From: an uncultured Bacteroidota bacterium
GTDB taxonomy: Bacteria > Bacteroidota > Bacteroidia > UKL13-3
Assembly (NCBI GenBank): GCA_903834625.1
Contig: CAILJQ010000174.1
Coordinates: 1-49,745, forward strand
Length of the DNA stretch: 49,745 nt
Reading direction: 5' to 3'
Part shown: in pieces, positions 568-38,988 of the stretch
How positions within the stretch are numbered: the first letter of the stretch is position 1
Layout of the letters: each line of letters opens with the position of its first letter
The notes under the pieces: model-generated
The model's database searches: none
Seen by the model: the letters and a program-made list of their open reading frames with translations, nothing else
Told to the model about the DNA's origin: nothing
Made by a program: the position numbers and the translations under genes

Positions 568-912
568 AGGTTTGGGGTAGTTATCTATCGAATGTAGGGA
601 TTGAAACCATGAAACCCAAATCTAGCATCTCATTCATGGTTAGGATGGGCATAGAAGATTCTCACTAAACTTAATTTGTCATAACAGGATGTATTTCCCT
701 GCCATCATTCGAGATCTGCATTCTCAAACAATTATCCATTCTTCTATTAATTTTCAGGTGAAACCAAATGTCAAAATAGCGAAAAGGTTTTGTATAGGTA
801 AAAATAGAGTTATTGTCATTTGTTAGGTATTTTTGCAATAAGTAAATACCTTGTATATTTGGGCTGAACCTATTGGAAAATCTCACTACTATTTTTCTAA
901 TCATACATACAT
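568..912. other. Divergent intergenic region, cupin / methyltransferase
   Basis: This 345-base stretch separates two divergently transcribed genes. I see no convincing gene in it. The only clear signal is the Bacteroidota-type promoter for the methyltransferase near its right end. Confidence 0.6.
833..861 (+). promoter_or_regulatory. Bacteroidota-type promoter for methyltransferase
   Basis: TTG at 833-835, an 18-base spacer, then TATATTTG at 854-861 match the known Bacteroidota consensus (TTG, about 17-23 bases, TAnnTTTG). The predicted start point near 868 leaves a leader of about 45 bases before the ATG at 913. Confidence 0.6.
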
Positions 913-1545
913 ATGGAAAACTTCGACCGTAAAAAACATTGGGAAAATATCTATCAAACCAAGGAACTGAAAGATGTAAGTTGGTTTCAACCCACACCTG
1001 AAACCTCTTTGGATTTTTTCAATCAATTCAAAGTGCCCTTTCATGCTAAAATAATAGATATTGGCGGTGGTGATAGTTTTTTGGTTGACCACCTTATAGA
1101 ATTGGGGTACCAAGACATATCGGTTCTCGACATTTCTGCAGCGGCCATAGAAAGGGCAAAACTTCGTTTGGGAGAAAAGGCAAAAAATGTAAAATGGTTG
1201 GTGGCAGACGCTGCAACATTTAAGCCAACAGAGATGTACGATTTTTGGCACGACCGTGCTGCATTTCATTTTTTAACAGATGAACAAGAGATATCGAACT
1301 ACCTGCAAACTGCTCAACAGTACATTAATGAAACAGGGGTAATGGTTATTGGAACCTTTTCTGAGCAAGGTCCGAAAAAGTGCAGTGGGATAGAAATCAA
1401 ACAATATTCTGAAACCTCTATGACCGCTCGCTTGAAAATGTTATTCGAAAAAGTGAAATGTATTACCGTAGACCATACCACCCCATTTGAAACCATACAG
1501 AACTTTGTATTTTGCAGTTTCAGGAAGTTACCTACTCATTCCTAG
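913..1545 (+). CDS. Class I SAM-dependent methyltransferase
   Basis: This 210-residue protein has a Rossmann-type methyltransferase fold. SAM-binding motif I is IIDIGGGDS (about residues 48-56), the acidic end of strand beta-2 is at SVLDIS, and WLVADAATF forms the beta-3 region. The post-core segment reads HDRAAFHFL, where UbiE/thiopurine-type small-molecule methyltransferases carry a similar motif. The N-terminus (HWENIYQTKE...VSWFQPTPE) is typical of a widespread stand-alone family of unknown substrate. There is no signal peptide, so it is cytosolic. The ATG lies suitably downstream of a good promoter. After the TAG stop the same frame stays open for 34 more codons. Whether the substrate is a metabolite or a protein cannot be told. 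Confidence 0.85.
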   Translation: MENFDRKKHWENIYQTKELKDVSWFQPTPETSLDFFNQFKVPFHAKIIDIGGGDSFLVDHLIELGYQDISVLDISAAAIERAKLRLGEKAKNVKWLVADAATFKPTEMYDFWHDRAAFHFLTDEQEISNYLQTAQQYINETGVMVIGTFSEQGPKKCSGIEIKQYSETSMTARLKMLFEKVKCITVDHTTPFETIQNFVFCSFRKLPTHS

Positions 1546-1794
1546 AAATTGAATCCATGGTTGGATACTTTAGGACTTCCTGAATTTCAAAAAATGAACA
1601 TTAACCTGGGCGATTCTGCAACAATCTTTACTTTTTGGGATAAGCGCTAGGAGCCTGAAAAATTAAATGAAAAGCAAAGGGGCTAGACCTTAATGTTTTG
1701 GCACTTTAAGCGATAATTATGGTTTTGGGGTCCATAATGATGCTTTGATTTGCCATAATGATGGCCTTAAAGGCGTAATATATTGCTTGGTTTA

Positions 1795-1848
1795 CCATAC
1801 GTTTCGCCTATTGAACCATATATATTGTTTGGCAAGCCAAACGTATGG
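1795..1848. repeat. 10-base perfect inverted repeat
   Basis: CCATACGTTT at 1795-1804 pairs with AAACGTATGG at 1839-1848 across 34 bases. A smaller hairpin, TTTGGC / GCCAAA, lies just inside the right arm. It could be a transcript-end structure for the methyltransferase, a protein-binding site or the remnant of a small repeat element. There is no T-tract, so it is not a standard terminator. Confidence 0.55.
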
Positions 1849-1956
1849 AGTTTTTAAATAACTTTTATCGTATCCACAGAAAAACACAAGCCAAAAACAA
1901 AGGAGAATGGAACATGGATTATGTTGAGAATACGATTGAATAGCGTGATTGGGCAT

Positions 1957-2000
1957 AAAAAAAACCATAAACCCTAATAGAATGCTAGGGTTTATGGTTT
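1957..2000 (-). terminator. Rho-independent terminator of efp
   Basis: A perfect 15-bp stem (arms 1962-1976 and 1986-2000) with a 9-base loop is followed, reading on the minus strand, by eight T residues. It lies 20 bases after the EF-P stop codon. Confidence 0.9.
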
Positions 2001-2020
2001 ATCAATTCCTCGGAAAAAAT

Positions 2021-2581
2021 TTATTTAACGCGCTCCACGTAATCGCCTGTGCGGGTATCAACTTTAACTTTATCGCCTACGTTTACAAACAATGGAACCA
2101 TAACTTCAGCACCATTATCTAAACGCGCTGGCTTAAGGGTGTTGGTTGCTGTATCGCCTTTTACTCCTGGCTCTGCATAGTCTATGGTTAAAATAACAAA
2201 AAACGGCATCTCGGCAGAAAGACAAAGATCGCCCTCAAAAGACACCTTTAAAATCATTTCCTCTTTTAAGAACTTAACAGAATCACCTAGTAATGTTTCT
2301 TCAATATATATCTGATCAAAGGTCTCAGGATCCATAATTACAAGGCTAGTACCATCTTTGTACAAATACTGCATTTCTTTGAACTCAACGCGCACCATTT
2401 CTACCGACTCGCCTGCACGGAAACGGTGTTCCATTTGTTTACCCGATTTTACGTTACGTAAAACTACTTGGTAAAATGCCCTTAAATTTCCTGGAGTACG
2501 GTGTTGGTATTCCATCACCTGACATAATTCATTGTTGTGTCTAATAAAACAGCCTTTGAAAAGATCGCCTGTATTTGCCAT
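2021..2581 (-). CDS. efp: Translation elongation factor P
   Basis: EF-P binds between the P and E sites of the ribosome and relieves stalling at proline runs. The 186-residue length and three-domain layout (KOW-like domain I, then two OB domains) fit the family. The C-terminal EF-P signature region is clear: EPGVKGDTATNTLKPA, then VPLFVNVGDKVKVDTRTGDY and the usual ERVK end. The domain I tip reads HRTPGNLRAF, so the position equivalent to E. coli Lys34, or to the rhamnosylated Arg of other species, is Asn32. Neither beta-lysylation nor arginine rhamnosylation can occur there. The gene is monocistronic with a strong terminator. Confidence 0.97.
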   Translation of the reverse strand: MANTGDLFKGCFIRHNNELCQVMEYQHRTPGNLRAFYQVVLRNVKSGKQMEHRFRAGESVEMVRVEFKEMQYLYKDGTSLVIMDPETFDQIYIEETLLGDSVKFLKEEMILKVSFEGDLCLSAEMPFFVILTIDYAEPGVKGDTATNTLKPARLDNGAEVMVPLFVNVGDKVKVDTRTGDYVERVK

Positions 2582-2671
2582 GTATTTAGTTATTTAATCA
2601 ATTTTTAGGCTGCGAAAATAAGAAAAGCTTGCAGATTTTTGAATACCCCAAGCATAATTCTGTTTTTACCA

Positions 2672-2700
2672 TTGATAAAGTGCAGGAATCTTTATATTGG
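2672..2700 (+). promoter_or_regulatory. Probable promoter of the DUF5686 gene
   Basis: TTG at 2672-2674, an 18-base spacer and TATATTGG at 2693-2700 give a one-mismatch match to the Bacteroidota consensus. Its position supports translation from the ATG at 2734 rather than from upstream in-frame ATGs. Confidence 0.4.
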
Positions 2701-2733
2701 AACCATAAAAAACACCCAAAGGCCTTGTTAAAA

Positions 2734-5301
2734 ATGAACCCAAGTAAACCCTTATTGCTCGTATTTACCCTTTTTTTAATGAGCACCGCCTTGCAGGCAC
2801 AGCTTTTAACAGGTAAATTACAGAACAAAAATGGTGAGCCCTTGGCGTATGTAACCATTTACTCACCAACGGCTAAAAAAGGAACGAACTCTAACGTAAA
2901 CGGAACTTTTGAGTTAAAGTTACCTTTAGGCAAACAACAAGTGGTTTTTCAAAGCATCGACTACAAATCTGTTGTGAAGGAATTGGAAATTGTAAGTGGT
3001 AGTCAAGAATTGAACCTCACCATGGAGGAGCAAACTTATGAATTGAAAGAGGTTCAAGTTAAAACTGGGAAGGAAAACCCTGCTCATTATATCATGAAAA
3101 AGGCTATTGCTGCTGCCCCCTACTATCGCAGACAAGTACTTAGTTATAAAGCAAAAGTTTATGTAAAAGGAACTGGAAGAGTAGATGAATCGCCTCGTTT
3201 GCTGAAAGGTTTAATTGCCAAACAAGGCATTGAAGTAGGAAGAAGTTACCTCACAGAAAGTTTGAATGAATTGGAATTTAGGCAACCCAATACCTATAAG
3301 GAGAAGGTAATTTCCCTTAAAACAACCATGCCTTTTGATGATGCACCCCAACCCATGCGCATGGCAAGAGGAAGTTTATATGATGTGGGCGATGCAGAAT
3401 CTGAACAGATTTCTCCGCTTTCTCCAAGGGCATTTTCTGTCTATAATTTTTATTTAGAAGGGAGCTTTTATGAGAACGGCTATGAGGTAAATAAAATTCG
3501 GTTCGAACCAAAAAGACGTGGAAATGACGTGAGCAGTGGCACTTTGTTTATTATAGAAAAACTATGGTGCATGCACAGTTGCGTGATTGAACAAGAACAA
3601 GCAGGGATGCTTACAACCGTTAAAACGAGTTTTAAACCTATGGCAGAATACCCCTTTGTTTGGATGCCAGTTACTTATGATATCAAAGCAGTGGGTAGTT
3701 TTATGGGAATAAAAGGTAGCTTTAGGTATTTGGCATCTTTAAGTAATTACCAAATAAAACTCAACCCAAATGTGAGTCATGATTGGGCCCAAAAAGCAGG
3801 TATTGCGCCCAAAATGCAAGAAGAAAATTCGGTTCGAACCGAAAAAAAAGAATACCAAAAAACCAAAAACCAACAGGCCATTGAAGCGCTTTTGGCGAAA
3901 GAAAATTTGAGCAAAAGAGAAATGCTAACATTGGCCTCTAAAATGAAAGCCGAATCTGAAATGAAAGCCAATAAGGGTGTTTTTGAAGACGATAGCAGCG
4001 AGATTGTGGTTGATTCTTTGGCACTGAAACAAGACAGCAGCTTTTGGGTTCAGAACCGACCAGTGGCTTTAATGCAAGATGAAAATATTAGCTATGCCAT
4101 TCAAGATACGCAAACCAGGAAGCCTACAGATAGCCTCAATAAAAAAACCAAAGTAGCTTTAAGTGATGTATTGATATTTGGCAATAACCATTACAACAAG
4201 AAAAAGGAAAGATATTTTAAATACCAAGGTTTGTTTGCTCGCCCCTATTTGAACACAGTAGAAGGCTTAGGCTTTCAAACGCAATATACCTATGCCAAAA
4301 CAACTCCTAAGGGTTGGCTAATTAATCAAACAATAAAAGTTCCTATTGAAAGGTGGCTACCCCAATCGCAACTCACTTTAGCGAGGTTTTATGTGGGAGG
4401 CAGGTATGCTTTAAAGGCTGGAGTATTGGTGAGTGATTACAACAATAAAGGAATTGACCAATACACAGATGCGTTTCAATTATTATTCCTTAAACAAAAT
4501 TTCAGCAAGCTTATCCAACAAGAATTTGTGAGTTTTGATTGGTCGCAAGAGCTCCATAAAAACCTCAAAATAACCCTTCGTGGCGCATTTTACAACCGAT
4601 TTGGCATTGATAATATTGATAGGTACCAAAGGCAAGTTGGCAATAGCACACTTTCATCCAACTCGGTTTTGGGCAACAACCCTAACCAAAAAAGCTATCA
4701 ATTAGGTATGAGTATTTGGTTCAGACCATTTCAACAATATCAAATGAAAAACAACCGTAAAATTGCCCTAAAAAATAGATGGCCAGGCATTCAAGCTGAT
4801 TATACTGAGGCATACGGAACTGCATTACAATTTAGAAAAGTAGAGTTAACCCTCGATCAAAACCTGAAAGTTTTCCATTGGCTGGAGTTGTTTTATGAGG
4901 CCAAAGGGGGTTACTTTTTTAACGCCACAAATGTGCATTTGGCAGATTATTTCCATTTTGCGGGCAATCAAAGTTTTGTATACATTGGCGAACCCAAACG
5001 CCGCTTTCAGCAATTACCTTACTATTCTTATAGCACCTCTAGTTATTATAAAAGTGCTTTTGTTGAGTTGAGTTTCAAAAAACTTTTATTCAAACATTTA
5101 CCATATCTAAACTTGCTCGATTTTAAGGAACAAGTGTATGTAAATTACCTACATACCCATGAAATGCCTTTTTATTATGAAACGGGTTATAGAATAAATG
5201 AATTATTAAATAGAGTGAGTTTGGGTGTAAATATTGGCTTCTCTAACAATGTTTACCAATCAACAGGCTTTTACATGAGCATTAAATTGCAAAGAAATTA
5301 A
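2734..5301 (+). CDS. DUF5686 / carboxypeptidase-like regulatory domain outer-membrane protein
   Basis: The protein has 855 residues from the chosen start, which opens a Sec signal peptide (MNPSKPLLLVFTLFLM ... LQAQ); an in-frame ATG at 2629 would put 35 residues in front of it and overlap the promoter. Residues of about 25-110 form a carboxypeptidase-D-like beta-sandwich (GEPLAYVTIYSP ... GTNSNVNGTFEL). This is followed by DUF5686, ending in a beta-strand-rich C-terminus likely to be an outer-membrane barrel. A charged, helical linker (KKEYQKTKNQQAIEALLAKE) lies near residue 375-445. Function is unknown for the family. The TAA overlaps the priA stop codon by the palindrome TTAA. Three copies of the GGTYYRRACC decamer lie in the gene (3500, 3831, 4718). 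Confidence 0.85.
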   Translation: MNPSKPLLLVFTLFLMSTALQAQLLTGKLQNKNGEPLAYVTIYSPTAKKGTNSNVNGTFELKLPLGKQQVVFQSIDYKSVVKELEIVSGSQELNLTMEEQTYELKEVQVKTGKENPAHYIMKKAIAAAPYYRRQVLSYKAKVYVKGTGRVDESPRLLKGLIAKQGIEVGRSYLTESLNELEFRQPNTYKEKVISLKTTMPFDDAPQPMRMARGSLYDVGDAESEQISPLSPRAFSVYNFYLEGSFYENGYEVNKIRFEPKRRGNDVSSGTLFIIEKLWCMHSCVIEQEQAGMLTTVKTSFKPMAEYPFVWMPVTYDIKAVGSFMGIKGSFRYLASLSNYQIKLNPNVSHDWAQKAGIAPKMQEENSVRTEKKEYQKTKNQQAIEALLAKENLSKREMLTLASKMKAESEMKANKGVFEDDSSEIVVDSLALKQDSSFWVQNRPVALMQDENISYAIQDTQTRKPTDSLNKKTKVALSDVLIFGNNHYNKKKERYFKYQGLFARPYLNTVEGLGFQTQYTYAKTTPKGWLINQTIKVPIERWLPQSQLTLARFYVGGRYALKAGVLVSDYNNKGIDQYTDAFQLLFLKQNFSKLIQQEFVSFDWSQELHKNLKITLRGAFYNRFGIDNIDRYQRQVGNSTLSSNSVLGNNPNQKSYQLGMSIWFRPFQQYQMKNNRKIALKNRWPGIQADYTEAYGTALQFRKVELTLDQNLKVFHWLELFYEAKGGYFFNATNVHLADYFHFAGNQSFVYIGEPKRRFQQLPYYSYSTSSYYKSAFVELSFKKLLFKHLPYLNLLDFKEQVYVNYLHTHEMPFYYETGYRINELLNRVSLGVNIGFSNNVYQSTGFYMSIKLQRN
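3828..3843. repeat. 16-bp perfect palindrome, GGTYYRRACC family
   Basis: TTCGGTTCGAACCGAA lies inside the DUF5686 coding region, read as S-V-R-T-E. The identical 16-mer recurs in the intergenic region at 14684-14699. Confidence 0.9.
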
Positions 5302-10595: not shown

Positions 10596-10626
10596 TTGAA
10601 ATACAGAATTTTATCTGTTAATTTTG
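10596..10626 (+). promoter_or_regulatory. Promoter of Ig-repeat T9SS protein
   Basis: TTG at 10596-10598, a 20-base spacer and an exact TAnnTTTG element (TAATTTTG, 10619-10626). The predicted start point near 10633 is just ahead of the ATG at 10645. It also argues against the TTG codon at 10624, which lies inside the -7 element. Confidence 0.6.
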
Positions 10627-10644
10627 TTTAAACACCTAAAACTT

Positions 10645-13600
10645 ATGAGAACAAAATTTACTGTTTTCCTTGTCTATTTATTGCTTTCTTTTTCCCAGCT
10701 ACATGCACAAACATTGCTTTCACCAGGCATTCACCCTATCAACAACTTAGGGCCACGAACGGCTGTATTTAGTGGCATGGGTGGTTTAGGCAAAACAAGT
10801 AATTGTAGCACAGATACTGTGAATTACACTTGGAATAAAACAACCGCATTAAATACCATTTCATTAAACAATGCAACTAGCGGCAATGCTTTTGCTCAAT
10901 GGTACCCTGCTCCGCAAGCCATTACAGTGCATGGCTTTGAATTTTATGCCTGGGTTACTACCATGAACAGCGCGGTGGTTACGCTTACCTGCCGTTTGTA
11001 TAATGCAGGTATTGATTCCATGCCAGTTGGTTCAGCACTTGCAACTACAACCATAAATGTAGATTCAACTTTTGGAGGAGGTGTATTAACAGCCTTGCGC
11101 AAAAAAGCAATCTTTAGCACTCCTGTTACCACTTCAAATCCGAATGGGTATGTTTTGGCTATTGAAACCTCAAGCTCTGTGAATGTAGCGGTAGTAGCCA
11201 ACTCATGGACAGCCGCTCCTGCTAATGGTCGCTTTGAATGGTTAAGCTCTGTGAGAATTGGTACTACCTATAACCGCAGTTATAATATCAATATTGGAGG
11301 CGTAACTTTCAATGCAGATTTTATTATGCAGCCATTTGTTTCCTACAACCTCACTGCAAATTTTACAAGCTCTGCTTCTTGCATGGTTCCTGCTACAGCA
11401 TTTACTTTTACCAATACATCTAGCCCTGTTCTTTTTAATAAATTTTATAATGTTCGTGCCTTTTTTGGGACACCTCAATTTAGTTGTGTGTGGGATTACG
11501 GGGATAGTACCGGATCATATTATGCCGTAAATGGAAGCAGAATTTTTAATTACAATGCTACCTATAAGGTAAAACTTACAGATACCCTTATAGGTTGGAT
11601 GAGCGGTTGTGGCGACTCCTACACGCGAGAAATCTATCAAACACCCTCGCCAACCATTGCAAGTAATAATAGTCCAATATGCTCTGGTGGCACCTTAAGA
11701 TTATTTGCAGATTCAGTTCCGGGGGCAACATATGCATGGACCGGACCAAATGGATTTACCTCCAATCAAAGAAATCCTGAAATAAGCGGTGCAGGGATAG
11801 CTGCAACAGGTCTATATTCTGTAACTGCTGTAATTGGACAATGTTCCTCCTCTGTTGCTACTACCTATGCAACGGTTATTAACTCCTATAATGCCGGCAA
11901 TAACGGACCACTTTGTGCTGGACAAAACCTTAGTTTAAATGCAACTGAAATCACAGGGGCTACTTACAGCTGGACAGGACCAAATGGATTTACCTCTAGT
12001 TCTAGAAATGCGTTAAGAAGCTCCGTAACAAAGGCAGATTCAGGTCTATACTCTGTTAACATTAGTGCACCTGGATGCGGTGTTTTAGGCTCATTTAACA
12101 CCTTGGTTATTGTAAATAATATTCCTGCCACCCCTACAGCATCAAGCAATGGGCCCGTTTGTGTTGGCCAAACCTTAAACTTATCTGCCAGTGGAATTAC
12201 GGGTGGATATAATTGGGTGGGACCAAACAATTTCAGTTCTAATACCCAAAATCCTGTTCGACTTTCCTCTCAATTAACCTTTGCTGGAACTTATTCTGTT
12301 ACCTTAACTGCTAATGGTTGTACCAGTAACCCAGGTAGTGTAAATGTTGTTGTAAACAGTATTCCTACAGCTCCTACCGCTGGCAATAACGGACCCCTTT
12401 GTTCAGGTCAAACCTTAAGTTTAAGTGCAAGCCTTATTCCCAATGCAAGTTATAATTGGAGTGGGCCAAATTCTTTTGTTTCAAACCTACAAAACCCAAC
12501 ACGCACAGGATTGACATTGTTAGATGCAGGATTATATTCAGTTATTGCAACAGTAAACGGTTGTCCTTCTGCTGTTGTTACTACATCCGTTGTCATTACA
12601 AGTACAACACCTGCTCCAACAGTAAGTGGTAACGGACCATTATGCCCAGGACAAAACTTACAACTAACCGCAACAGGAACTGCTGGTGCCACCTATTCTT
12701 GGTCGGGACCAAACAATTTTAGTTCAAGCCAGCAAAATCCGGGTATAAACAATGTGAACGATTCTAATGCAGGAATTTATAGTGTTACTGCAAGCACAAC
12801 TGCCTGTGGAACCTCTTCTGCTGCAACCTATACATTAGTGGTAAACACATTGCCTCCAGCACCTTCTTTGGGCAATAACGGACCCATTTGCGAAGGCCAA
12901 AACTTGAACCTAACTGCAGCAAGCATAACGGGTGCAAGTTATTCATGGACTGGTCCGCAAGGATTTAGTTCTACAAGCCAAAATCCAAGTATTACGAACA
13001 TGACAAAGGCTAAAGCAGGAACGTATACTGCTTTTGTAACCGTTACTGGATGCGGTACCTCACCCACCTCAACCACAACAGTTGTTGTAAGGTCAGTACC
13101 AAATGCGCCCATAACCAGTAGCAACTCTCCTGTATGTATTGGAGATACAATTCGTTTAAATGCAGCACAAACTTCAGTAGGACCGAATGCCACTTATCAT
13201 TGGAGTGGACCAAATAACTTTAGTTCCGACAATAAACAAACTTCTATCAATAGCGCCCTATCAGGCGATGGTGGAATTTATTCGGTTACAGTAAGCGATA
13301 GCGGATGTGTTTCAAGCCTTGGTTCTGTAAGTGTTCAAGTACGTAGTTTACCAGCATCTCCATTGGCATCAAGCAATAGTCCCATATGCGCAGGAGCAAA
13401 TTTAAACCTACAAGCAGGCACTGTTTCTGGAGCAAGTTATCAATGGCAAGGACCAGAATCTTTTGTTTCAACTTCACAAAATCCCATTGTTACTTCAACC
13501 GCAGTTAAAAATAGCGGCACCTATTCTGTTAGGTCATTTGTAAACGGATGTGGTTCTATTCCTGCCACTGTAAATGTGTTGATTAATGCCTTGCCTGCAG

Positions 13601-14613
13601 AGCCTGTTGCAAGTAATACTGGACCAGGTTGTGTTGGAGATAATATTACACTTAGGGCAAGCAATATTATTGGTGCAACCTACAATTGGAGCGGACCAGG
13701 ATTTACCTCAACCCTACAAAACCCAATATTGGTGAATGTGAGCAAAAGCATGAGTGGCTCCTATGCTGTATCTGCATCGGTGAGTGGTTGTACTAGTACC
13801 GAGGCTAAAACAGATGTAGTAATTAATTCCATACCTGCTGCCCCAACCTTAAGCAGCAATCCAAGCACAGCGGCTTGTACCGGAGATAGTTTGAGGTTTT
13901 ATGCTAGCAATGTAAGCAATGGTGTATTTGAATGGAATGGCCCTTTAGGTTTCACCTCCAATAGTCAAAACCCAGTATTGTTCATAAACAACACTGCCCA
14001 AGGTGGTGCTTACAATGCCAAGGTAACTCAATTGGGATGTACTTCTGCTACCGCAACCATTAATATTCAGGTTCATGCTTCTCCAAATACTAGCAGTATT
14101 AATGGATTAACAGATGTAAGAAGCGGTGAAAACCAATCCTATTCAGTTACAAGTACTGCAGGTTCTACCTATGATTGGCAAATTACCGGTGGTTCTATTC
14201 AATCTGGTTTAGGAACATCAAGTGTAACCGTTATTTGGGGTGCCAAAGGAAATGGAAGCATCACTTTAACAGAAACTAATGCCGCAGGTTGTAAAGGTAT
14301 TAAACAAAACAAGGCTGTTAATATTGGTCCGCCTACTGGTTTAAAAGAGGCTGCAAACCAACTAAGTGTTGTAATGTATCCTAACCCTAGCAATGGAAAT
14401 GTATTTATTCATTTTACCGAACCTGTTCAAAGCATAGAAGCATTGGTAATAACAGATGTAAGTGGAAGAATAGTAAAGAAGTATACAGGTACTATTAACC
14501 CATCAATCGACTGGCAAATAAATTTGAGTGAATTGGGTTCAGGGCTCTATTTTGTGCAGCTCCGAGCCAATGGAAAAGAATGTACCAAAAGCATAGCCAT
14601 TCAAGGCAATTAA
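10645..14613 (+). CDS. Ig-like tandem-repeat protein with type A T9SS sorting domain
   Basis: From the ATG at 10645 the protein has 1322 residues and a Sec signal peptide (MRTKFTVFLVYLLLSFSQLHAQ). A unique N-terminal region of about 310 residues is followed by ten Ig-like repeats of about 80 residues. Each repeat has a core such as NNGPLCAGQNLSL, then a Y-x-W-[ST]-GPNGF block and a closing YSV or CG segment. A PKD/Ig-like module and a type A T9SS C-terminal domain follow (YPNPSNG from about residue 1242, then DVSGRIVKK and GLYFVQL, ending with the KSIAIQGN strand). The known family pattern predicts export across the outer membrane by the T9SS and anchoring or release at the surface. Ligand unknown; adhesion is an inference. 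A strong terminator follows. Confidence 0.85.
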   Translation: MRTKFTVFLVYLLLSFSQLHAQTLLSPGIHPINNLGPRTAVFSGMGGLGKTSNCSTDTVNYTWNKTTALNTISLNNATSGNAFAQWYPAPQAITVHGFEFYAWVTTMNSAVVTLTCRLYNAGIDSMPVGSALATTTINVDSTFGGGVLTALRKKAIFSTPVTTSNPNGYVLAIETSSSVNVAVVANSWTAAPANGRFEWLSSVRIGTTYNRSYNINIGGVTFNADFIMQPFVSYNLTANFTSSASCMVPATAFTFTNTSSPVLFNKFYNVRAFFGTPQFSCVWDYGDSTGSYYAVNGSRIFNYNATYKVKLTDTLIGWMSGCGDSYTREIYQTPSPTIASNNSPICSGGTLRLFADSVPGATYAWTGPNGFTSNQRNPEISGAGIAATGLYSVTAVIGQCSSSVATTYATVINSYNAGNNGPLCAGQNLSLNATEITGATYSWTGPNGFTSSSRNALRSSVTKADSGLYSVNISAPGCGVLGSFNTLVIVNNIPATPTASSNGPVCVGQTLNLSASGITGGYNWVGPNNFSSNTQNPVRLSSQLTFAGTYSVTLTANGCTSNPGSVNVVVNSIPTAPTAGNNGPLCSGQTLSLSASLIPNASYNWSGPNSFVSNLQNPTRTGLTLLDAGLYSVIATVNGCPSAVVTTSVVITSTTPAPTVSGNGPLCPGQNLQLTATGTAGATYSWSGPNNFSSSQQNPGINNVNDSNAGIYSVTASTTACGTSSAATYTLVVNTLPPAPSLGNNGPICEGQNLNLTAASITGASYSWTGPQGFSSTSQNPSITNMTKAKAGTYTAFVTVTGCGTSPTSTTTVVVRSVPNAPITSSNSPVCIGDTIRLNAAQTSVGPNATYHWSGPNNFSSDNKQTSINSALSGDGGIYSVTVSDSGCVSSLGSVSVQVRSLPASPLASSNSPICAGANLNLQAGTVSGASYQWQGPESFVSTSQNPIVTSTAVKNSGTYSVRSFVNGCGSIPATVNVLINALPAEPVASNTGPGCVGDNITLRASNIIGATYNWSGPGFTSTLQNPILVNVSKSMSGSYAVSASVSGCTSTEAKTDVVINSIPAAPTLSSNPSTAACTGDSLRFYASNVSNGVFEWNGPLGFTSNSQNPVLFINNTAQGGAYNAKVTQLGCTSATATINIQVHASPNTSSINGLTDVRSGENQSYSVTSTAGSTYDWQITGGSIQSGLGTSSVTVIWGAKGNGSITLTETNAAGCKGIKQNKAVNIGPPTGLKEAANQLSVVMYPNPSNGNVFIHFTEPVQSIEALVITDVSGRIVKKYTGTINPSIDWQINLSELGSGLYFVQLRANGKECTKSIAIQGN
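11650..14085 (+). repeat. Ten tandem Ig-like coding repeats (about 240-256 bases each)
   Basis: Repeat starts judged from the conserved NNGPxC block lie near 11654, 11888, 12136, 12377, 12617, 12864, 13110, 13366, 13607 and 13850. Spacing is 234-256 bases. DNA similarity is strongest around the AATAACGGACC and GGACCAAA segments, while the rest has diverged. Confidence 0.8.
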
Positions 14614-14634
14614 TGTAAAATGCATACAAAATAA

Positions 14635-14675
14635 AAGGGAGCATCACTTATCAAAAAGTGGTGCTCCCTTTTTTT
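14635..14675 (+). terminator. Rho-independent terminator of the Ig-repeat gene
   Basis: A 14-bp stem with one G-T pair (14636-14649 / 14656-14669) and a 6-base loop is followed by seven T residues. The A-rich left flank could let it also stop minus-strand transcription from the M1 peptidase gene. Confidence 0.88.
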
Positions 14676-14704: not shown

Positions 14705-17700
14705 TTAAAACGAACGGTTGATGCCAATAACCCAACGATACATTACATTGTTAGGTTCAAGGTAAGAAGCATTGCTCAAATAAAAAGGAATATCAAAGCG
14801 AACGCTTAATGGTTTAATTTCATCTAACTGTCCGAAACGCTTGAGGGTAAAGACCAAACCATGGCCTCCACTTGCCATGATTCCCGTATTCAATTTATCG
14901 TAAGTAACCAGCATGGTTTGGTTGTTACCTGCACCTAAATTGGTAGAAAGAAACCCTGCATCAAAAAACAAATAGGCATCTATGTGAATATATTTGCTTA
15001 AACCACCTGCCTTCAATGGAATGTATTTATCATAATCTAATTCAAGATTAACTGCAGCTCCAGCGTTGCCCCTGTATAAGTATACCTGATTTATTCCATC
15101 AAAAACTGGTACAACATAACCCGCGTAACCTCTTAGGTTCAGACCGCCACCTGTTTGAAAATGATTGGCCACATTGCCGTAGGTGAAATAATTGGCCGGA
15201 ATAATACCTGCTGCACGGGTATATTTGTTTTCTACCATTTCTTCTGGGTTTGCCCCTGCCAAGTATAATTGAGACTCTGGAGCAATGTTGCTACCTGTTA
15301 TCCATTGGGCAAATAACCTGCTACGTAGCTCAAATTTCGCCAATGGATGTGTTTGGGTTAGGTTCAACAAAATAGAAGCATAATCATAATCTGAATATAA
15401 GAAGTTTCCTTTAAAGTACAACTGTATTTTGCCTCCACCTTTCCAATAGGAAAGGCCACGCTCCCACTCAATATTTAAGGTATTATTATAAGCATCGTAA
15501 GAGGATAAGGTAGGTATGAAATTACTAAAGGCCATTTCAGTTAATTCAAAGCCCGGCGAGTAATACAATTGTGTTCTGCGCATAGATTTTACATACAATT
15601 TGTAAGTATCTCTGCCATTTATTTTCTCCAAACCAATTTTGTTTAGTAACAAGCCATCCAACATCCTGCTTTGAAAATTCCAATCCAAAAATTTACCTAT
15701 TCTATTTTTATAACTTACGGCATAACTCAATGGGTAAATGGCACTACTTTTCTCATAATATTGTTGCTCATAATTACTTGCCAACCCACTATTATACCAA
15801 ATACTTGCCCTAAAAATATGTTTCCTATTCATGTAATGACCATTGGTATGAATACCTATTTTAAAGCCATCATACATGTTGTACCACACATCTGGACGGG
15901 CCTTTAAAATATAATGGTGCCTATCTGGCGGATTTGATATTTGATGATCGAAAGTGAACAATACCGGACATTTCCAACTATTATCTATTTCATAAATATC
16001 TGCCAAACGTTTGCTAGGATCAATCTCTACATTCAATAACTTAGCACTAGAAGGTACCGCCAAGGTGTATGTAGGATTGAGCTTTCCCCAACCATACCAT
16101 TTTACCCAAGGCTTGCCAAAATCTGTTTTACTAAAATACGTATTGGGAATGGTAAACTTTTTATCTGCAGAGTCTTTAAAGGTTAATAAAACATCTAAAG
16201 GCATTTGCATTTCACCCTTCCGTTCAAACTGAATTTCATATACCAAACCTTTGTGGTGCTTTACACTTTTCACTTTATAATCTATGGTTTTTGTTGTCTC
16301 CATCCATTGGTCAAAGAACCAATTAAGGTCTACATGGGTATATCCAATAATGCTGTTTCTAAAATCTTCGAAATAAGGATGTGCCATTTTCCATTGGTTA
16401 AAATAATGTTGCATGGCCTTTAAGAACAACTCATCACCCAAAACATATTGAAGGTTATATAACATGGTAGCTGTTTTGTAATACACGTTGCCATATCCAC
16501 CACCATGATTTAAGGCACCATTAAAATCATCACTATGGGTATTTAATGGCATATCCACATGATCCATCGCATCACGCATATACCCTTGATAAATGGTTTG
16601 ATCCAGAGAAGGCATAGGTCTGTAGTACTTGTCTAACCAAAACCTACCAGAATTCAATTGCTTTCTTTCTTTGGTTAATCTACTCATGCTCCAATGGGTT
16701 AAGAATTGGGTGAATCCTTCATCTAAACTGGCCCTGTAAGTTTCATTGTTTCCTACCATTCCAAAAAACCAATTATGGCCAACCTCATGGGCAATCAAAC
16801 CATAATAACCCGGACTCCTGCCACCATCCAAGGTTAACATAGGATATTCCATGCCATCACGGGCATCTGCACAAATCATTTTAGGGTAAGCATAGGTGCC
16901 AAAATCTCTGCTATAGGTTTCAATAATTTTAGAACAAAACATGGCTGCGTCTTGCCATCCAGAAGCATGTGGTTCTTGAACCAAGGCTATACAACGTACC
17001 TTACCTCTTGGATTTTCAGGAAGGGGTAAAACTACTTCTCCAATTCGGTATGTAGGGTCGCAGGTCCAAGCAAAATCATGTGTATTCACAGATTTATAAC
17101 GCCAAGTTTTGGTAGTTCCATTTGGCTCAATAATAACCGAAGCTTTCTCTTCCCAAGGTTTTTTCTCGAAATTTTTGATATCTAATTTCTTTCTTAATGC
17201 CTCAGGTAATACTTCAGTTTCATTCAACAACTCGCCAGTGCCATCCATAATGAATTGGTTAGGTAGGGTTATGTTTACATTGTATTGCCCATAATCTCCG
17301 TAAAATTCTTTCCCTAAATGTTGGAAAGTTTCCCAACCAAACTTGCGGTCGTACGGACAAATACGCGGGTACCAGTGTACCACATCGAACTGCTTATTAC
17401 CAGCAGCATCTTTAAACATTTTCATCCTTCTGCGCTGGTTGCCACCATCATCAAAATAGGTAGTAAAATCTATATCAAATTCTATAGAAGCTCCAGGTAA
17501 TATAGGTTTTGGCAACATTACCTTCATGATGGAATAATCTATCCAAAATTCTGCAGGTTGCCCAGCAACTTTTAAAGAGTGAATTTTGGTGCCTTTCCCA
17601 TCCAATTCATATTTGCCAAACTTCTGTTTAAAATCATTGGCCAAATTCAATTGCTCTAAATATCCGCCCTTTAAAAAGGCATTTTGGTATAGGTGAAAAT

Positions 17701-17941
17701 AAGCTACAAACAAGGTATCTGGAGAGTTATTATAATAAGTTAATCTCTCTCTTCCACTTACCTCATCTGTTTGGTCGTTTAGGGTCACATCTAAGGTATA
17801 CCAGACATCCTGCTGCCAATATCCTTCATAGGGTTTTCTGTTTTTCCAATAATAAGGGTTGGCTTCACTTCTGTAATCAAAGTCTTGGGCAAAGGCTACG
17901 GTCTGAACCAAAACCAAAAGCAAAAAAACAATTTTCTTCAT
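14705..17941 (-). CDS. M1-family metallopeptidase with C-terminal outer-membrane barrel
   Basis: The 1078-residue protein begins with a signal peptide (MKKIVFLLLVLVQTVAFAQ). Residues of about 30-620 form an M1 (gluzincin) aminopeptidase-type unit. The zinc site is HEVGH (385-389) with the third ligand Glu408, exactly the HExxH-x18-E spacing, and DGMEYP stands where the family has its GAMEN-like motif. Residues of about 650-1078 are alternating beta-strands ending in phenylalanine. They include GGGLNLRGY (LRGY at 936-939), resembling the VRGY/F motif of Omp85/TpsB barrels. The reading is a peptidase tethered to the outer membrane by its own barrel; whether it faces the periplasm or the outside cannot be told. 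It is divergent from the BNR/PKD gene. Confidence 0.88.
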   Translation of the reverse strand: MKKIVFLLLVLVQTVAFAQDFDYRSEANPYYWKNRKPYEGYWQQDVWYTLDVTLNDQTDEVSGRERLTYYNNSPDTLFVAYFHLYQNAFLKGGYLEQLNLANDFKQKFGKYELDGKGTKIHSLKVAGQPAEFWIDYSIMKVMLPKPILPGASIEFDIDFTTYFDDGGNQRRRMKMFKDAAGNKQFDVVHWYPRICPYDRKFGWETFQHLGKEFYGDYGQYNVNITLPNQFIMDGTGELLNETEVLPEALRKKLDIKNFEKKPWEEKASVIIEPNGTTKTWRYKSVNTHDFAWTCDPTYRIGEVVLPLPENPRGKVRCIALVQEPHASGWQDAAMFCSKIIETYSRDFGTYAYPKMICADARDGMEYPMLTLDGGRSPGYYGLIAHEVGHNWFFGMVGNNETYRASLDEGFTQFLTHWSMSRLTKERKQLNSGRFWLDKYYRPMPSLDQTIYQGYMRDAMDHVDMPLNTHSDDFNGALNHGGGYGNVYYKTATMLYNLQYVLGDELFLKAMQHYFNQWKMAHPYFEDFRNSIIGYTHVDLNWFFDQWMETTKTIDYKVKSVKHHKGLVYEIQFERKGEMQMPLDVLLTFKDSADKKFTIPNTYFSKTDFGKPWVKWYGWGKLNPTYTLAVPSSAKLLNVEIDPSKRLADIYEIDNSWKCPVLFTFDHQISNPPDRHHYILKARPDVWYNMYDGFKIGIHTNGHYMNRKHIFRASIWYNSGLASNYEQQYYEKSSAIYPLSYAVSYKNRIGKFLDWNFQSRMLDGLLLNKIGLEKINGRDTYKLYVKSMRRTQLYYSPGFELTEMAFSNFIPTLSSYDAYNNTLNIEWERGLSYWKGGGKIQLYFKGNFLYSDYDYASILLNLTQTHPLAKFELRSRLFAQWITGSNIAPESQLYLAGANPEEMVENKYTRAAGIIPANYFTYGNVANHFQTGGGLNLRGYAGYVVPVFDGINQVYLYRGNAGAAVNLELDYDKYIPLKAGGLSKYIHIDAYLFFDAGFLSTNLGAGNNQTMLVTYDKLNTGIMASGGHGLVFTLKRFGQLDEIKPLSVRFDIPFYLSNASYLEPNNVMYRWVIGINRSF

Positions 17942-26522: not shown

Positions 26523-26717
26523 AAACAAAGGTACTTCAAGAGATTTTAGGTATTCACTAAATACATCTTTATTGATTTAGTCTTTTTCAAATGTCTACTA
26601 AATTGGGTTTGTAGCCGGTTTTGTGAATCTTAATATTTACTAAATCATATGTTTATAAAGGCCAATGAGTTAATTTGTGCCTGTATTTTCATCCCATACA
26701 ATTTAAAATTTAATAGC

Positions 26718-29700
26718 ATGTTGAAAAAATTATTATTTGCAGGTTTATTGTTTGCAAATTTTTCAGCCTATTCGCAGTTCAACAATACCATTGGAACGGT
26801 TGGTTTGCCTCAGAATGGAGGCATCATACTCGATGTAATTGATTATAACAACGATGGATTCGAGGATGTGATTTATCAATCTGGCCTCAATGGACCCATT
26901 GAATTATACAGGAACACCAACGGAGTATTCGCAAATGTTACTTCCTATGCTGGCCTACCTTCCATAACAGGTAAAGGTGACGGCTCTGAAGGGGTAATCT
27001 CTTTCGACTATAACGGAGATGGGTTCCAAGACATCCTCCTCACCAATTCGGGCTCAAACGGTAATATGAGATTGTTCAAAAACAATTGTGGTGCAAACTT
27101 TACCGATGCTTCTGGTAGCGCCAACCTTCCTGCTATTACCCATTTTGTTCCTCAAATTTCTACAAATGATCCAATTATTTTTGCTACAGATTATGATAGT
27201 GATGATGATATTGATTTGGTATATTGTCGTAAAGATGAAACAGGAAAATATTGGATTACTGCCCTCAATAATGGTGGTGGGTCTTTCAGCACCCCTAGTG
27301 ATTTGATCACCAGCTTTGGTACTTCCATCATACCCTACATTGCAGTTTTTGATTACGACAATGATGGTGACGAAGATTTTTTAGTGATTAAATCGGATAA
27401 TATTTCTAATGCCAGTCAAGTTGAGTTATACGATAATAGCGGTACAGGCATTTTCACTGTGCAAAGCTCTATCGGTATCTCAAATAGCAGTGCAGTGGGT
27501 TTTGCAAACATCTTAGATTACAATGCCGATGGATATTTAGATGTTTTATTGGGCACAAAAGATGTTGTTGCTCCTGGTCCTGGCAATTTAGGTTTGAGGG
27601 TTTTCAGAAACAATGCTGGGAATGCCACTTTTACCGATGTAACTTCTACGTTTAATACTCAAGCAGCAAGTGCGGCAAATTATTTTGCTTCCCATGTTTT
27701 TGATATGGAAAATGATGGAGACCTAGATGTTTTATGGGAAAACAGTGGCTCACTTCCCAATAGCACTCCTGCCCTTATGAGTAACAACGGTTCAAATGTT
27801 TTTACTAATGTGAGTGCCACACAAATTCCTACAGCTATTACCAATTCTACCTCTACAGAAAAATACGTTGTATTCGATTACAACAACGATGGAGCGTTAG
27901 ACATATTTCAGCCTGCAACCTTCGGAAATCCTTCAGCCAAATTATTCAAGAACCCACAAACCTTAAACAACTTTATCACCTTAAGATTGCAAAGTTGTAC
28001 GGGGCTTACTGATCCTCTTGGAGCAAGAGTATATGTAAAGGCAGGGTCTGTTAGATTGTTTAAACAATATAATGCACAAGGAATTAGTACCACTGGACCT
28101 GGAAAAAGTGAACGCATGCATTTTGGATTGGGTTCAAACAATGTGATTGATACCATCATCATTTATTGGCCAAGTGGATCTGTTGATACCAAAACAAATA
28201 TAAGCTCAAACCAAAACCTAACCTTCCAAGACGGCGTTTGCTCTATTGGTCAACCTATCACGTTCGACTTAGGTCCTGATACCAACACGGTTTGTAACGC
28301 AGATACTGCTTACATACTTGCACCTGGAGGCTTTGAAAGTTATACATGGTCAACTGGCGACATTACTCCTGATGTAAAAATCACCACAAGAGGTTGGTAT
28401 TATTGTACTGTTACCAATATCAATGGTTGTGGTATCATGGATAGCGTATATGTGGCTTTTGGTATTGGAAAAATAATACAACCAGATACTTCTGTGTGTT
28501 TGGGAACAGTTCTAACATTAGATGCTTCACCCAGATTTGATTGCGGACCTTTTGGTGCTCCAGTAAAAAGGAAAGTAAACGCAGGTGACGATTTAGGCCC
28601 TAGATATACCTATGTAAATTCTTTAAATGGACATCATTATTATTTAATTAACAACGCCTCTACTTGGTCGCAAGCAGAGAGTGAAGCAGTGAGTATTGGT
28701 GGACACTTGGCCATTATTAATGACCAACTTGAGCAAGATTTTATAAATAACCAGCCTTCCATTTCATCTACCAATTTATGGATTGGACTTTACAAAACAA
28801 CTTCAGTAGGCGGCGAATTTAAATGGGTGAATTGTGATACCCTTGAATTTACCCAATGGGCCTCTGCTGTAGCTGCTCCTACAACAGGTGTAAATGAGAA
28901 TTTCGTATACATTAGAGCAAAAGGTTGCCCAGGAGAAGGTGAATGGAAAAATACTGATGAAACAGCTACTATTTCTGATCCATGCGAAAGAAATATCAAA
29001 GGTCTAGTAGAATTTGATGATGCTACCAATATTTCATACCTATGGAGTAATGGTGATACTACTGCCTCAACAACCATAACAGCAAATTCTTCTACCAATT
29101 ATAATGTAAAGATAACCCAACCAGAAAACACCTGCTTTGGTTCTATCAATGTGAATGTTATTGACCCGAATAACTTGTTACCTTCAGATAGTTTATTTGA
29201 GTGCAAATCAACATTTACAATCCTTCAGGCAACAGCGGGTTATACCAATTACCAATGGAACACTGGTAGTAAAAATAGCTTCATTTTTGTAAGCACTTCC
29301 GGATCAAATCGCTGGTATACAGTTACAGCTACTTCCCCAGAAGGTTGCCTTGGAAAAGATAGCATTTTTGTAACCTTGTTTAATGCAGCTATCCGCACAC
29401 CCGATACCACAGTTTGTTTAGGTAGTCAAGTATTCTTAAGAGGACCAACTCCAACATATACTTACATTACAAGTTATACCCAAAACTTCCAAAGCCTTCC
29501 TTATCCTCCAGAATGGGCCATTTATGGTACAGGTTTTAACTTTAATGGTTCACGTTTAATGGGACCATTTGCCAATGATTCTGTGGTATACAATATGACA
29601 AATTTGCCTATCCACGATTCTGTTTCAGTTTCCTTTGATTTATATATTCATGATACTTGGGAAGGTGAATGCAGCACAAATGGTAAAGACCGCTTTAGAT

Positions 29701-32267
29701 TTAAAAATGGCCTAACAAATGTGATGAATACGACCTTCTCCAACACCGTAGGTTGTAATCAAGCATATTCATATGTTGGTGCCCCAGGTTCTTACCCTGC
29801 AGGCCAGGATGCGGAGATAACAGGATTAAGCAAAAGATGCGATAACAATGGTACCACTTCTAAATATACCATTACCAAAACATTCAGACATAGCGCTACA
29901 GACTTGGATTTGAGTTGGGTAGGTGAACTTACAGACGCGGTTGATAATACAGGTAAGTGTAACGAAAGTTGGTCTATTGATAATGTAATGATTAACCTAC
30001 GCAGACCAGGAGGCTTGTTATGGTCTACTGGTGACACAGAACAAAATATTTTTGTAAAACCAGTTGATCCTGTAACTGAGTATTGGGTGCGTATTCCTGT
30101 AGGAAATTCATATTGTTATGATACCGTTTTCGTAAGTACTGTTCAAGGTGAGTTCCCTGGCGAAATGTTCTTCACAGATACCATTAGAACTTGTGGTTCA
30201 TATAGTGTTAACTTCTCCTTGCCCGACAATTTTGACAAATATGTTTGGAGCACGGGAGATTTGAGTAGAACCACCACCTTTTACAATGAAGGATGGTACA
30301 GAGGTTATGTTGAAACTACTACTGGTTGTTATGATTATGATAGTATTTACCTGTTAAAAGCAAACTACCATATCATACCTCGTAATGATACTGCCTTATG
30401 TATTGGTTCAACCCTAACTGTAAAAGCAGATTTAGGTAATGGATGTAGTCCATTTGGACCGCCAGCAAACATAGGTTTTGTTCCAGGTCAATCTATTCCT
30501 GGTTATACCTTTAAAGGCGAATACTTAGGTCACCATTATTATATGGCCGATACACGTTCTTCATGGTCAACCGCAGCACAATTGGCTTTGGCTTCAGGCG
30601 GACATTTAGCAATAATTAATGATACCAGTGAACAGAATTTCATTGCCAGTATTGTTGATAGCAATGCCTGGTTAGGTTTATATATGGGAGCTGAAGGATA
30701 CTACAAATGGATGAATTGTGATACCCTTACCTATACAAATTGGGCATTAAATGAACCAACGGCCTCTCCTGATGATTATGTTTTTATGATGTCTACTGGC
30801 TGTCCTGAAGCCAAAAAGTGGGATGCACATACAGATGATGACATGACTTCAACAGACCCTTGTTATTCTTCTATTTATGGCTTGCTTGAAATTGTGCCTT
30901 ACCAATATGTTTTTGATTGGAGGGAGAATGGCATTTCAACATACAATACAGATAGCTTTACAGTAACCATTAGTGGCAATATTTCCTTCTTTGGAGGAAT
31001 TCAAGAAGTGCCGGGCGGACCATTCTGCGGTACTTCATCTGTTGACATTACAGTTATTGATGAAGGCTTTGAAATTTTGATAGACAGTGTAGCACGCGTT
31101 TCTTGTGAAGGTGATACCGCAATGATTGAAGCAAAACCAGGTTATTCTAATTACCATTGGAACAACGGCGACACAACCAGAATTGCAGTGTACAGCAGTT
31201 ACATTGGTTGGGCATATTGCATGTATGATAATGGATTTTGCCAATTTACCGATAGCGTTTATGTGAATGTTCCTGGTAAATTTACCTCTAATCCATCTGT
31301 AACGGATATAACTTGTTATGGTGCAAATGATGGTATTGGAAATGCGGGAATTACGGGAGGTACAAGTCCATTCAGTGTATTGTGGTTACACAACAACTCA
31401 ACCAATACCATTGAAACCAATTTGAGTCCGGGTGTTTATTACTACACCGTAACCGATTCAATTGGATGTTCTTTAATAGACAGTATTACCATTACCAACC
31501 CTGCCTCCCCTCTAACATTAAGCTTCACCCAATTACAAGCTGTAAAATGTAATGGCGATTCAAATGGAGTGGTTGTTCCTTTGCCATTAGGAGGTGAAGC
31601 TCCATACACTGGAATTTGGATAGGTACTACTTACGTAGATACTTTATGGAATGCCAAAGCAGGAATAAATACCTATACCGTAACTGATACCAGAGGATGT
31701 GTTGTTAGTTTGGAAGATACATTAACAGAGCCAACTGCTCTAGATATAACTGGATTAATCACCTCCCAAATTTACTGCCCAGAAGATTCAAATGGTGTTG
31801 TCTTCCTTGCTGCTACTGGTGGAGTTAACCCTTACAATTTTGTTTGGAACCTCAATCCAATAGTTGGAGACACTGCCTTTAAAGTTTACAATGGCAAACA
31901 AGTTTTTTATGTAGTTGATGCAAATTTCTGCTTTGATTCAATAGAAGTGGATATGCAGGCCTCTAACCCTGAAAAATGCGGATTAATTGTACCATCAGGA
32001 TTTACACCTAATAATGATGGAATGAATGATTTGTTTTACATCAAGGGGCTAAGTGAATATCCAGAAAATGAACTAACCATTTTCAACCGTTGGGGTGAAA
32101 CTGTTTTCCAAGCTACCAATTACAAAAATGATTGGAATGGTAAGCCAATGAACAAAACATTACTTAGCGGCACCGATGAATTGGTTCCTAATGATACCTA
32201 TTACTTTGTTTTGTACACAAAAGCAAATAATAAAACCACTTCGGGTTATGTATATATTACCAAGTAA
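26718..32267 (+). CDS. Giant FG-GAP / ASPIC / C-type-lectin / SprB-repeat protein with type B T9SS sorting domain
   Basis: The protein has 1849 residues from the ATG at 26718 (MLKKLLFAGLLFANFSAYSQ); an in-frame ATG at 26649 would bury this signal. Domains in order: about seven calcium-type FG-GAP/VCBS repeats (YNNDGFEDVI, YDNDGDEDFL, YNADGYLDVL and others; residues 30-400); an ASPIC/UnbV domain (about 420-507); a C-type-lectin-like domain (about 629-767: GHHYYLINN, GGHLAIIND, LWIGLYKT); a jelly-roll-like region; a second lectin-like domain (about 1262-1391); three SprB-type repeats (about 1527-1747: TCYGANDG, KCNGDSNG, YCPEDSNG); and the CHU-C/gliding-type C-terminus (PSGFTPNNDGMNDLF, IFNRWGE). 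Likely a surface adhesin exported by the T9SS with the PorP/SprF protein next door. Confidence 0.9.
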   Translation: MLKKLLFAGLLFANFSAYSQFNNTIGTVGLPQNGGIILDVIDYNNDGFEDVIYQSGLNGPIELYRNTNGVFANVTSYAGLPSITGKGDGSEGVISFDYNGDGFQDILLTNSGSNGNMRLFKNNCGANFTDASGSANLPAITHFVPQISTNDPIIFATDYDSDDDIDLVYCRKDETGKYWITALNNGGGSFSTPSDLITSFGTSIIPYIAVFDYDNDGDEDFLVIKSDNISNASQVELYDNSGTGIFTVQSSIGISNSSAVGFANILDYNADGYLDVLLGTKDVVAPGPGNLGLRVFRNNAGNATFTDVTSTFNTQAASAANYFASHVFDMENDGDLDVLWENSGSLPNSTPALMSNNGSNVFTNVSATQIPTAITNSTSTEKYVVFDYNNDGALDIFQPATFGNPSAKLFKNPQTLNNFITLRLQSCTGLTDPLGARVYVKAGSVRLFKQYNAQGISTTGPGKSERMHFGLGSNNVIDTIIIYWPSGSVDTKTNISSNQNLTFQDGVCSIGQPITFDLGPDTNTVCNADTAYILAPGGFESYTWSTGDITPDVKITTRGWYYCTVTNINGCGIMDSVYVAFGIGKIIQPDTSVCLGTVLTLDASPRFDCGPFGAPVKRKVNAGDDLGPRYTYVNSLNGHHYYLINNASTWSQAESEAVSIGGHLAIINDQLEQDFINNQPSISSTNLWIGLYKTTSVGGEFKWVNCDTLEFTQWASAVAAPTTGVNENFVYIRAKGCPGEGEWKNTDETATISDPCERNIKGLVEFDDATNISYLWSNGDTTASTTITANSSTNYNVKITQPENTCFGSINVNVIDPNNLLPSDSLFECKSTFTILQATAGYTNYQWNTGSKNSFIFVSTSGSNRWYTVTATSPEGCLGKDSIFVTLFNAAIRTPDTTVCLGSQVFLRGPTPTYTYITSYTQNFQSLPYPPEWAIYGTGFNFNGSRLMGPFANDSVVYNMTNLPIHDSVSVSFDLYIHDTWEGECSTNGKDRFRFKNGLTNVMNTTFSNTVGCNQAYSYVGAPGSYPAGQDAEITGLSKRCDNNGTTSKYTITKTFRHSATDLDLSWVGELTDAVDNTGKCNESWSIDNVMINLRRPGGLLWSTGDTEQNIFVKPVDPVTEYWVRIPVGNSYCYDTVFVSTVQGEFPGEMFFTDTIRTCGSYSVNFSLPDNFDKYVWSTGDLSRTTTFYNEGWYRGYVETTTGCYDYDSIYLLKANYHIIPRNDTALCIGSTLTVKADLGNGCSPFGPPANIGFVPGQSIPGYTFKGEYLGHHYYMADTRSSWSTAAQLALASGGHLAIINDTSEQNFIASIVDSNAWLGLYMGAEGYYKWMNCDTLTYTNWALNEPTASPDDYVFMMSTGCPEAKKWDAHTDDDMTSTDPCYSSIYGLLEIVPYQYVFDWRENGISTYNTDSFTVTISGNISFFGGIQEVPGGPFCGTSSVDITVIDEGFEILIDSVARVSCEGDTAMIEAKPGYSNYHWNNGDTTRIAVYSSYIGWAYCMYDNGFCQFTDSVYVNVPGKFTSNPSVTDITCYGANDGIGNAGITGGTSPFSVLWLHNNSTNTIETNLSPGVYYYTVTDSIGCSLIDSITITNPASPLTLSFTQLQAVKCNGDSNGVVVPLPLGGEAPYTGIWIGTTYVDTLWNAKAGINTYTVTDTRGCVVSLEDTLTEPTALDITGLITSQIYCPEDSNGVVFLAATGGVNPYNFVWNLNPIVGDTAFKVYNGKQVFYVVDANFCFDSIEVDMQASNPEKCGLIVPSGFTPNNDGMNDLFYIKGLSEYPENELTIFNRWGETVFQATNYKNDWNGKPMNKTLLSGTDELVPNDTYYFVLYTKANNKTTSGYVYITK

Positions 32268-32285
32268 CCTTTAAGCAGAATAAGA

Positions 32286-38839: not shown

Positions 38840-38988
38840 GTTTTTAACTTGTATATACCCATATACTACTTTAGTGCCAAAGGTTAAGTACTTATTTATC
38901 TGATACTTAAAAAAATTAACCCTTCCCAAAAATGGAAAAATAAAATCATAATTTTCATTTCAGGAATAGGTAATTCAAAGGCACTTAA

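Follow-up and report, generated by a model that had tools for sequence, protein, structure and literature searches.

The peptidase-barrel gene and its surroundings

The window, i.e. the whole stretch of 49,745 nucleotides that was analysed, carries on its reverse strand an intact reading frame of 1078 codons without interruption. Its product is predicted to join an N-terminal M1 metallopeptidase to a C-terminal barrel of the Omp85 type, a class that usually serves in protein insertion or export (Table 1). The fused frame is a real gene and not a chance product, since full-length orthologues occur in nearly all sampled genomes of the order, nearly all of the best 80 relatives match it over the whole length and the HExxH motif, E408, R937 and D994 are invariant in the 51 aligned sequences. 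The signal peptide, as read from the sequence, contains no lipobox cysteine; in the AlphaFold2 model its residues 2-11 are helical.

Table 1. Positions of the peptidase-barrel gene, its parts and the adjacent hairpin in the window
Feature	Residues	Position	Strand	Basis or remark
M1 peptidase-Omp85-type barrel gene	1-1078	14705..17941	-	open frame and orthologues
Sec-type signal peptide, cleavage site approximate	1-19	17885..17941	-	read from sequence
M1 domains I and II, catalytic	22-553	16283..17878	-	Pfam PF01433; Foldseek IRAP/ERAP1
GMEY, at position of the GxMEN exopeptidase motif	363-366	16844..16855	-	invariant in 51 sequences
HEVGH zinc site	385-389	16775..16789	-	H385, E386, H389 invariant
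Third zinc ligand (HExxH-x18-E, exact spacing)	E408	16718..16720	-	invariant
Putative catalytic tyrosine, in VYYKTA	Y487	16481..16483	-	invariant
M1 domain III, beta-sandwich	554-645	16007..16282	-	model secondary structure; all beta
Conserved peptidase-barrel linker	646-676	15914..16006	-	pLDDT about 85-94; 43.6% mean identity
16-strand Omp85-type barrel (predicted)	677-1078	14708..15913	-	structure models and PDB matches
Loop L6 (74 residues), strands 11-12	886-959	15065..15286	-	model; 51.2% identity
GGGLNLRGY, Omp85 L6 motif	931-939	15125..15151	-	R937 invariant; motif definition PMC4490367
FFDAG, strand 13, Omp85 (F/G)xDxG motif	992-996	14954..14968	-	D994 invariant; model; PMC4490367
17-bp hairpin, T/A tracts on both sides, between convergent genes		14633..14672

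With a divergent neighbour on one side and a convergent one on the other, the gene stands by itself, and the strong hairpin at its 3' side is likely a bidirectional terminator. The convergent gene (10624-14613, forward strand) encodes a protein of 1329 aa in which Pfam recognises nine Ig_7 stretches and a Por_Secre_tail. Elsewhere in the window the forward strand carries a gene for a DUF5686 protein (2629-5301), a family of unknown function, with a CarboxypepD_reg domain in front, and one for a 1872-aa protein with FG-GAP, ASPIC and C-type lectin domains and a CHU_C type IX signal (26649-33224), which is directly followed by a PorP/SprF gene. Two adjoining genes for DUF4842 proteins of 730 and 699 aa on the reverse strand (36737-38929 and 39061-41160) likely arose by tandem duplication.

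The M1 peptidase module

Peptidase_M1 (PF01433) was the sole Pfam family that matched the protein above its cut-off (54.5 bits at a cut-off of 27.7). The modelled M1 part has the M1 fold and was matched to IRAP and ERAP1 by Foldseek with an E-value of 1e-20. The module consists of domains I to III only; the helical domain IV is missing. The zinc site that the initial annotation had described as intact was recovered in full, with both HEVGH and the glutamate at x18. The VYYKTA stretch around Tyr487 stands at what we take to be the position of VYEKGA in PepN.

Conservation was determined from one alignment of 51 sequences. H385, E386, H389, E408 and Y487 as well as the GMEY residues were identical in all of them. 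The best conserved part of the protein was the M1 catalytic domain with a mean identity of 64%, compared to 43% for the barrel.

The GxMEN motif defines M1 aminopeptidases. In the GMEY found here the glutamate is kept and the asparagine is replaced by tyrosine, again in 51 of 51 sequences, such that the protein lacks the motif proper, which is kept as GAMEN in a PepN-like paralogue of the same genome (L004). As judged from its sequence the protein is an M1 metallopeptidase; because GMEY departs from GxMEN, its specificity and thus its assignment as an aminopeptidase are uncertain.

The C-terminal barrel

The full-length AlphaFold2 model, calculated from the 51-row alignment, reached a mean pLDDT of 83 and a pTM of 0.81, and the barrel modelled alone reached a pLDDT of 82. 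Sixteen strands were predicted, spanning residues 677-1075, with F1078 as the C-terminal residue. The barrel ending in phenylalanine that had been proposed earlier is thereby retained, while its start moves from residue 640 to about 677 and its length becomes about 400 residues, because residues 555-640 belong to the beta-sandwich domain III of M1.

When the isolated barrel model was compared with the PDB using Foldseek, BamA or TamA appeared in 50 of the 50 matches listed (best E-value 2.6e-9). VIA-align provided Z scores of 20.3 for Sam50, 20.2 for BamA and 18.5 for TamA. Omp85 barrels carry a (V/I)RG(Y/F) motif at the tip of L6 and an (F/G)xDxG motif on strand 13, which are joined by an Arg-Asp salt bridge called the "lid lock" (PMC4490367). 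Both motifs are found here and are positioned as in Omp85: LRGY at residues 936-939 lies within the predicted L6, with V, I, L or M at its first position among the relatives, and FFDAG lies on strand 13. R937, F992, D994 and G996 were identical in 51 of 51 sequences. L6 as a whole was conserved at 51.2% identity in this alignment, compared to 14-28% for the other long loops L2, L4 and L7. The likeness to Omp85 suspected in the initial annotation was thus upheld: the C-terminus is predicted to be a barrel, its isolated model resembles Sam50, BamA and TamA, and the RGY loop is conserved.

The last 430 residues gave no match to Pfam, NCBIfam or PDB-sequence models, and the Omp85 sequence model PF01103 did not match the barrel either. 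In hhalign comparisons with barrels of relatives no similarity to the BamA type was obtained, and a weak one to the TamL type (E-value 0.003) that was in register at FxDxG. The Omp85 assignment is drawn from the predicted fold and the motifs and would be weak by sequence alone.

POTRA domains, for which a search had been suggested, were found neither by Pfam nor in the model, unlike in canonical Omp85 proteins; residues 555-640 are all beta in the model, and the linker is too short to hold one. For this reason we refer to a POTRA-less Omp85-type barrel protein and not to a canonical Omp85.

Distribution and history of the fusion

Within the order of the window's bacterium, full-length orthologues were found in nearly all of 64 genomes from 14 genera, and many of the incomplete matches lay at contig ends. 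A scan of genome contigs provided 542 relatives, and the best 80 of these 542 were nearly all whole-length with identities of 45-76%. The survey of the architecture that had been called for showed it to be widespread: a search of the class with a model of the barrel resulted in matches in 193 of 396 genomes and 82 of 198 genera, usually one per genome, and M1-barrel fusions, with or without VRGY, also occur in other classes of the phylum. Among the class matches listed nearly all lay in frames of more than 1000 aa. Of the few short barrel frames that were checked, three were cut by contig ends, one had an internal stop and one was a true stand-alone barrel. Among 48 loci compared, no neighbouring gene recurred in more than roughly one third, and repetitive secreted proteins formed the most frequent neighbour cluster.

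Other classes of the phylum also contain barrels that stand alone, are about 415 aa long and share the motifs of the fused barrel. Those of one set (L115-L133 except L117) carry motifs like AGGxNLRGY and SYLFxDIG, for example in L115; a further one (L230) belongs to the window's class, and those scanned of this set and L230 had no Pfam family. In another family stand-alone barrels lie near ackA, NUDIX and greA.

Unfused peptidases were found as well. In a family of another class (f24) M1 forms a protein of its own, about 630 aa long, that has only a Sec signal and breaks off at the barrel boundary; a side-by-side split into two genes was rejected there, as the stand-alone barrel is encoded away from the M1 gene. 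The window's genome itself encodes an M1 paralogue of 795 aa without barrel (L003), and neither a barrel nor a T9SS tail was found in M1 paralogues of about 790-795 aa. Trees calculated for the M1 domain placed the unfused f24 proteins inside the fused ones (support 99/99 and 100/100), and likewise the 795-aa barrel-less forms (98/96), the latter on a long branch. A single old fusion, followed by two losses of the barrel, would be the simplest history, though we are unsure of the root of the M1 tree and of the long branch on which the barrel-less group D sits.

A second M1 protein of the same genome (L002, G000:C115:5083-6645), together with L178-L191, has a beta-rich C-terminus of more than 400 residues without RGY or a clear FxDxG.

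Location of the peptidase and role of the barrel

In the model the long loops L2, L4, L6, L7 and L8 all follow odd-numbered strands. The turns on the opposite side of the barrel mostly comprise 2-3 residues, with two exceptions of 15 and 11 residues. Since the barrel has 16 strands and all long loops come after odd ones, both of its ends, and hence M1, are predicted to be periplasmic. Joined to strand 1 by a link of about 30 residues, the peptidase would on these topological grounds lie on the periplasmic side unless it were translocated. A pTM of 0.81 for a chain of 640 plus 430 residues suggests that the two modules are fixed relative to each other. A periplasmic workplace is also supported by the barrel loss in two lineages, where a Sec signal only and no T9SS tail is left.

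The explanation that we consider probable is an M1 peptidase that is anchored in the outer membrane by a POTRA-less Omp85 barrel and faces the periplasm, for which we infer the periplasmic face, the catalytic activity and the substrate. In such a case the protein would be exported by Sec, and BAM would fold the C-terminal 16-strand barrel into the outer membrane. The M1 module with its domains I-III would stay in the periplasm, where POTRA domains would otherwise sit, and could there trim or cleave peptides or protein N-termini beside the membrane, as its predicted activity implies. The term "self-anchoring" that had been applied to the protein remains apt.

Alternatively, the barrel could be a working insertase or translocase, with M1 in the substrate-handling place of POTRA, such that both would act in turn on the same polypeptides. 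Examples would be N-terminal processing or quality control of OMPs, or the entry of external oligopeptides through the pore. Such a role, which we consider doubtful, would be consistent with R937 and D994 being invariant in 51 relatives, with L6 (51%) being much better conserved than L2, L4 and L7, and with the family also including stand-alone barrels. The invariance of the lid-lock pair would agree with a working gate, though the pair may have a purely structural role. Moreover, the POTRA domains present in BamA, TamA and FhaC are missing, RGY is gone in several distant fused forms, and the enzyme can work without the barrel, because two lineages lost it as a whole. Equally we regard as unlikely a reading by which these proteins make up a large, undescribed lineage of the Omp85 type, with a peptidase replacing POTRA and a barrel that still serves as gated insertase or translocase, such that proteolysis is coupled to passage into or across the outer membrane.

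Slightly less credence can be given to a self-secretion of the type Vd kind, as the initial annotation had envisaged by analogy with PlpD. Here the barrel, or a hybrid of it with the BAM barrel, would pass M1 outward, resulting in a surface-anchored or released exo-enzyme. The domain order is that of PlpD, Omp85 barrels include translocators such as FhaC, and surface autotransporter aminopeptidases exist, e.g. AaaA of P. aeruginosa (PMC3426542). The patatin domain of PlpD, however, has been shown to reside only in the periplasm, which overturns the analogy for secretion; by the proposal of its authors, new functions were built on a reused Omp85 scaffold (PMC11116518). In addition, M1 is large, globular and joined next to strand 1 on what the topology predicts to be the periplasmic side, there is neither a POTRA nor a patatin domain, and the relatives without barrel carry Sec signals only. 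Self-secretion is therefore not supported and ranks below the periplasmic placement. That the protein is an inactive relic, with the M1 fold kept as a scaffold or binding module on the barrel, would fit the replacement of GxMEN by GMEY but is very improbable, given that H385, E386, H389, E408 and Y487 show no variation among the 51 sequences and that no part is conserved better than the catalytic domain (64%).

Comparison with known systems

PlpD and the other patatin-Omp85 proteins (formerly type Vd) resemble the M1 protein in that an N-terminal hydrolase and a C-terminal 16-strand Omp85 barrel form one chain; the enzyme was shown to be periplasmic for PlpD and is predicted to be so for the M1 protein. 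The latter differs by having an M1 metallopeptidase instead of patatin and no POTRA, and the likeness described here is one of architecture. With Sam50, BamA and TamA the barrel shares the fold (Z 18-20), 16 strands, the L6 RGY and the strand-13 FxDxG, but the M1 protein is without POTRA, is missed by PF01103 and carries an enzyme. Domains I-III, HExxH-x18-E and the catalytic tyrosine are shared with PepN, ERAP1/IRAP and the cold-active aminopeptidase 3cia, whereas a barrel takes the place of the helical domain IV and GMEY that of GxMEN.

M1-barrel proteins are presumably filed as M1 peptidases in databases, and PF00149, by which another Omp85 fusion is defined, is taken here to be the metallophosphatase domain. 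The 2014 Omp85 survey of Heinz and Lithgow (PMC4104836) distinguishes ten subfamilies that include patatin-like, "noNterm" and "Metallo" proteins. The "noNterm" barrels are POTRA-less and may be compared with the stand-alone 415-aa barrels, while the "Metallo" group is an enzyme-Omp85 fusion like the M1 protein but is defined by PF00149 and not by M1. M1 is absent from the passages of the survey considered here, and the word "peptidase" appears nowhere in its main text. AaaA is likewise a barrel-anchored aminopeptidase; its authors describe it as a classical autotransporter (PMC3426542), and its barrel is not of the Omp85 type.

In the open-access literature we found no description of an M1-Omp85 barrel protein, nor any experiment on the present protein or on a relative. 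The best reading is that of a so far undescribed, enzyme-bearing and POTRA-less protein of the Omp85 type and not of a type Vd autotransporter. It would add to the Omp85-type barrels a branch with an intact lid lock, which about half of the class genomes sampled contain and which also has relatives in further classes of the phylum. Taken with PlpD, the protein suggests that barrels of the Omp85 type were repeatedly adopted as anchors for periplasm-facing enzymes. The natural occurrence of fused and unfused versions makes the benefit of the barrel to the enzyme directly testable.

Three further proteins (L164 at 883-4284, L165 and L166) of roughly 1050-1130 aa have a C-terminus that matches the Omp85 Pfam model. 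By our reading their front looks like a degenerate peptidase-MA-like domain followed by a beta-propeller, which would be another enzyme-like domain placed before Omp85.
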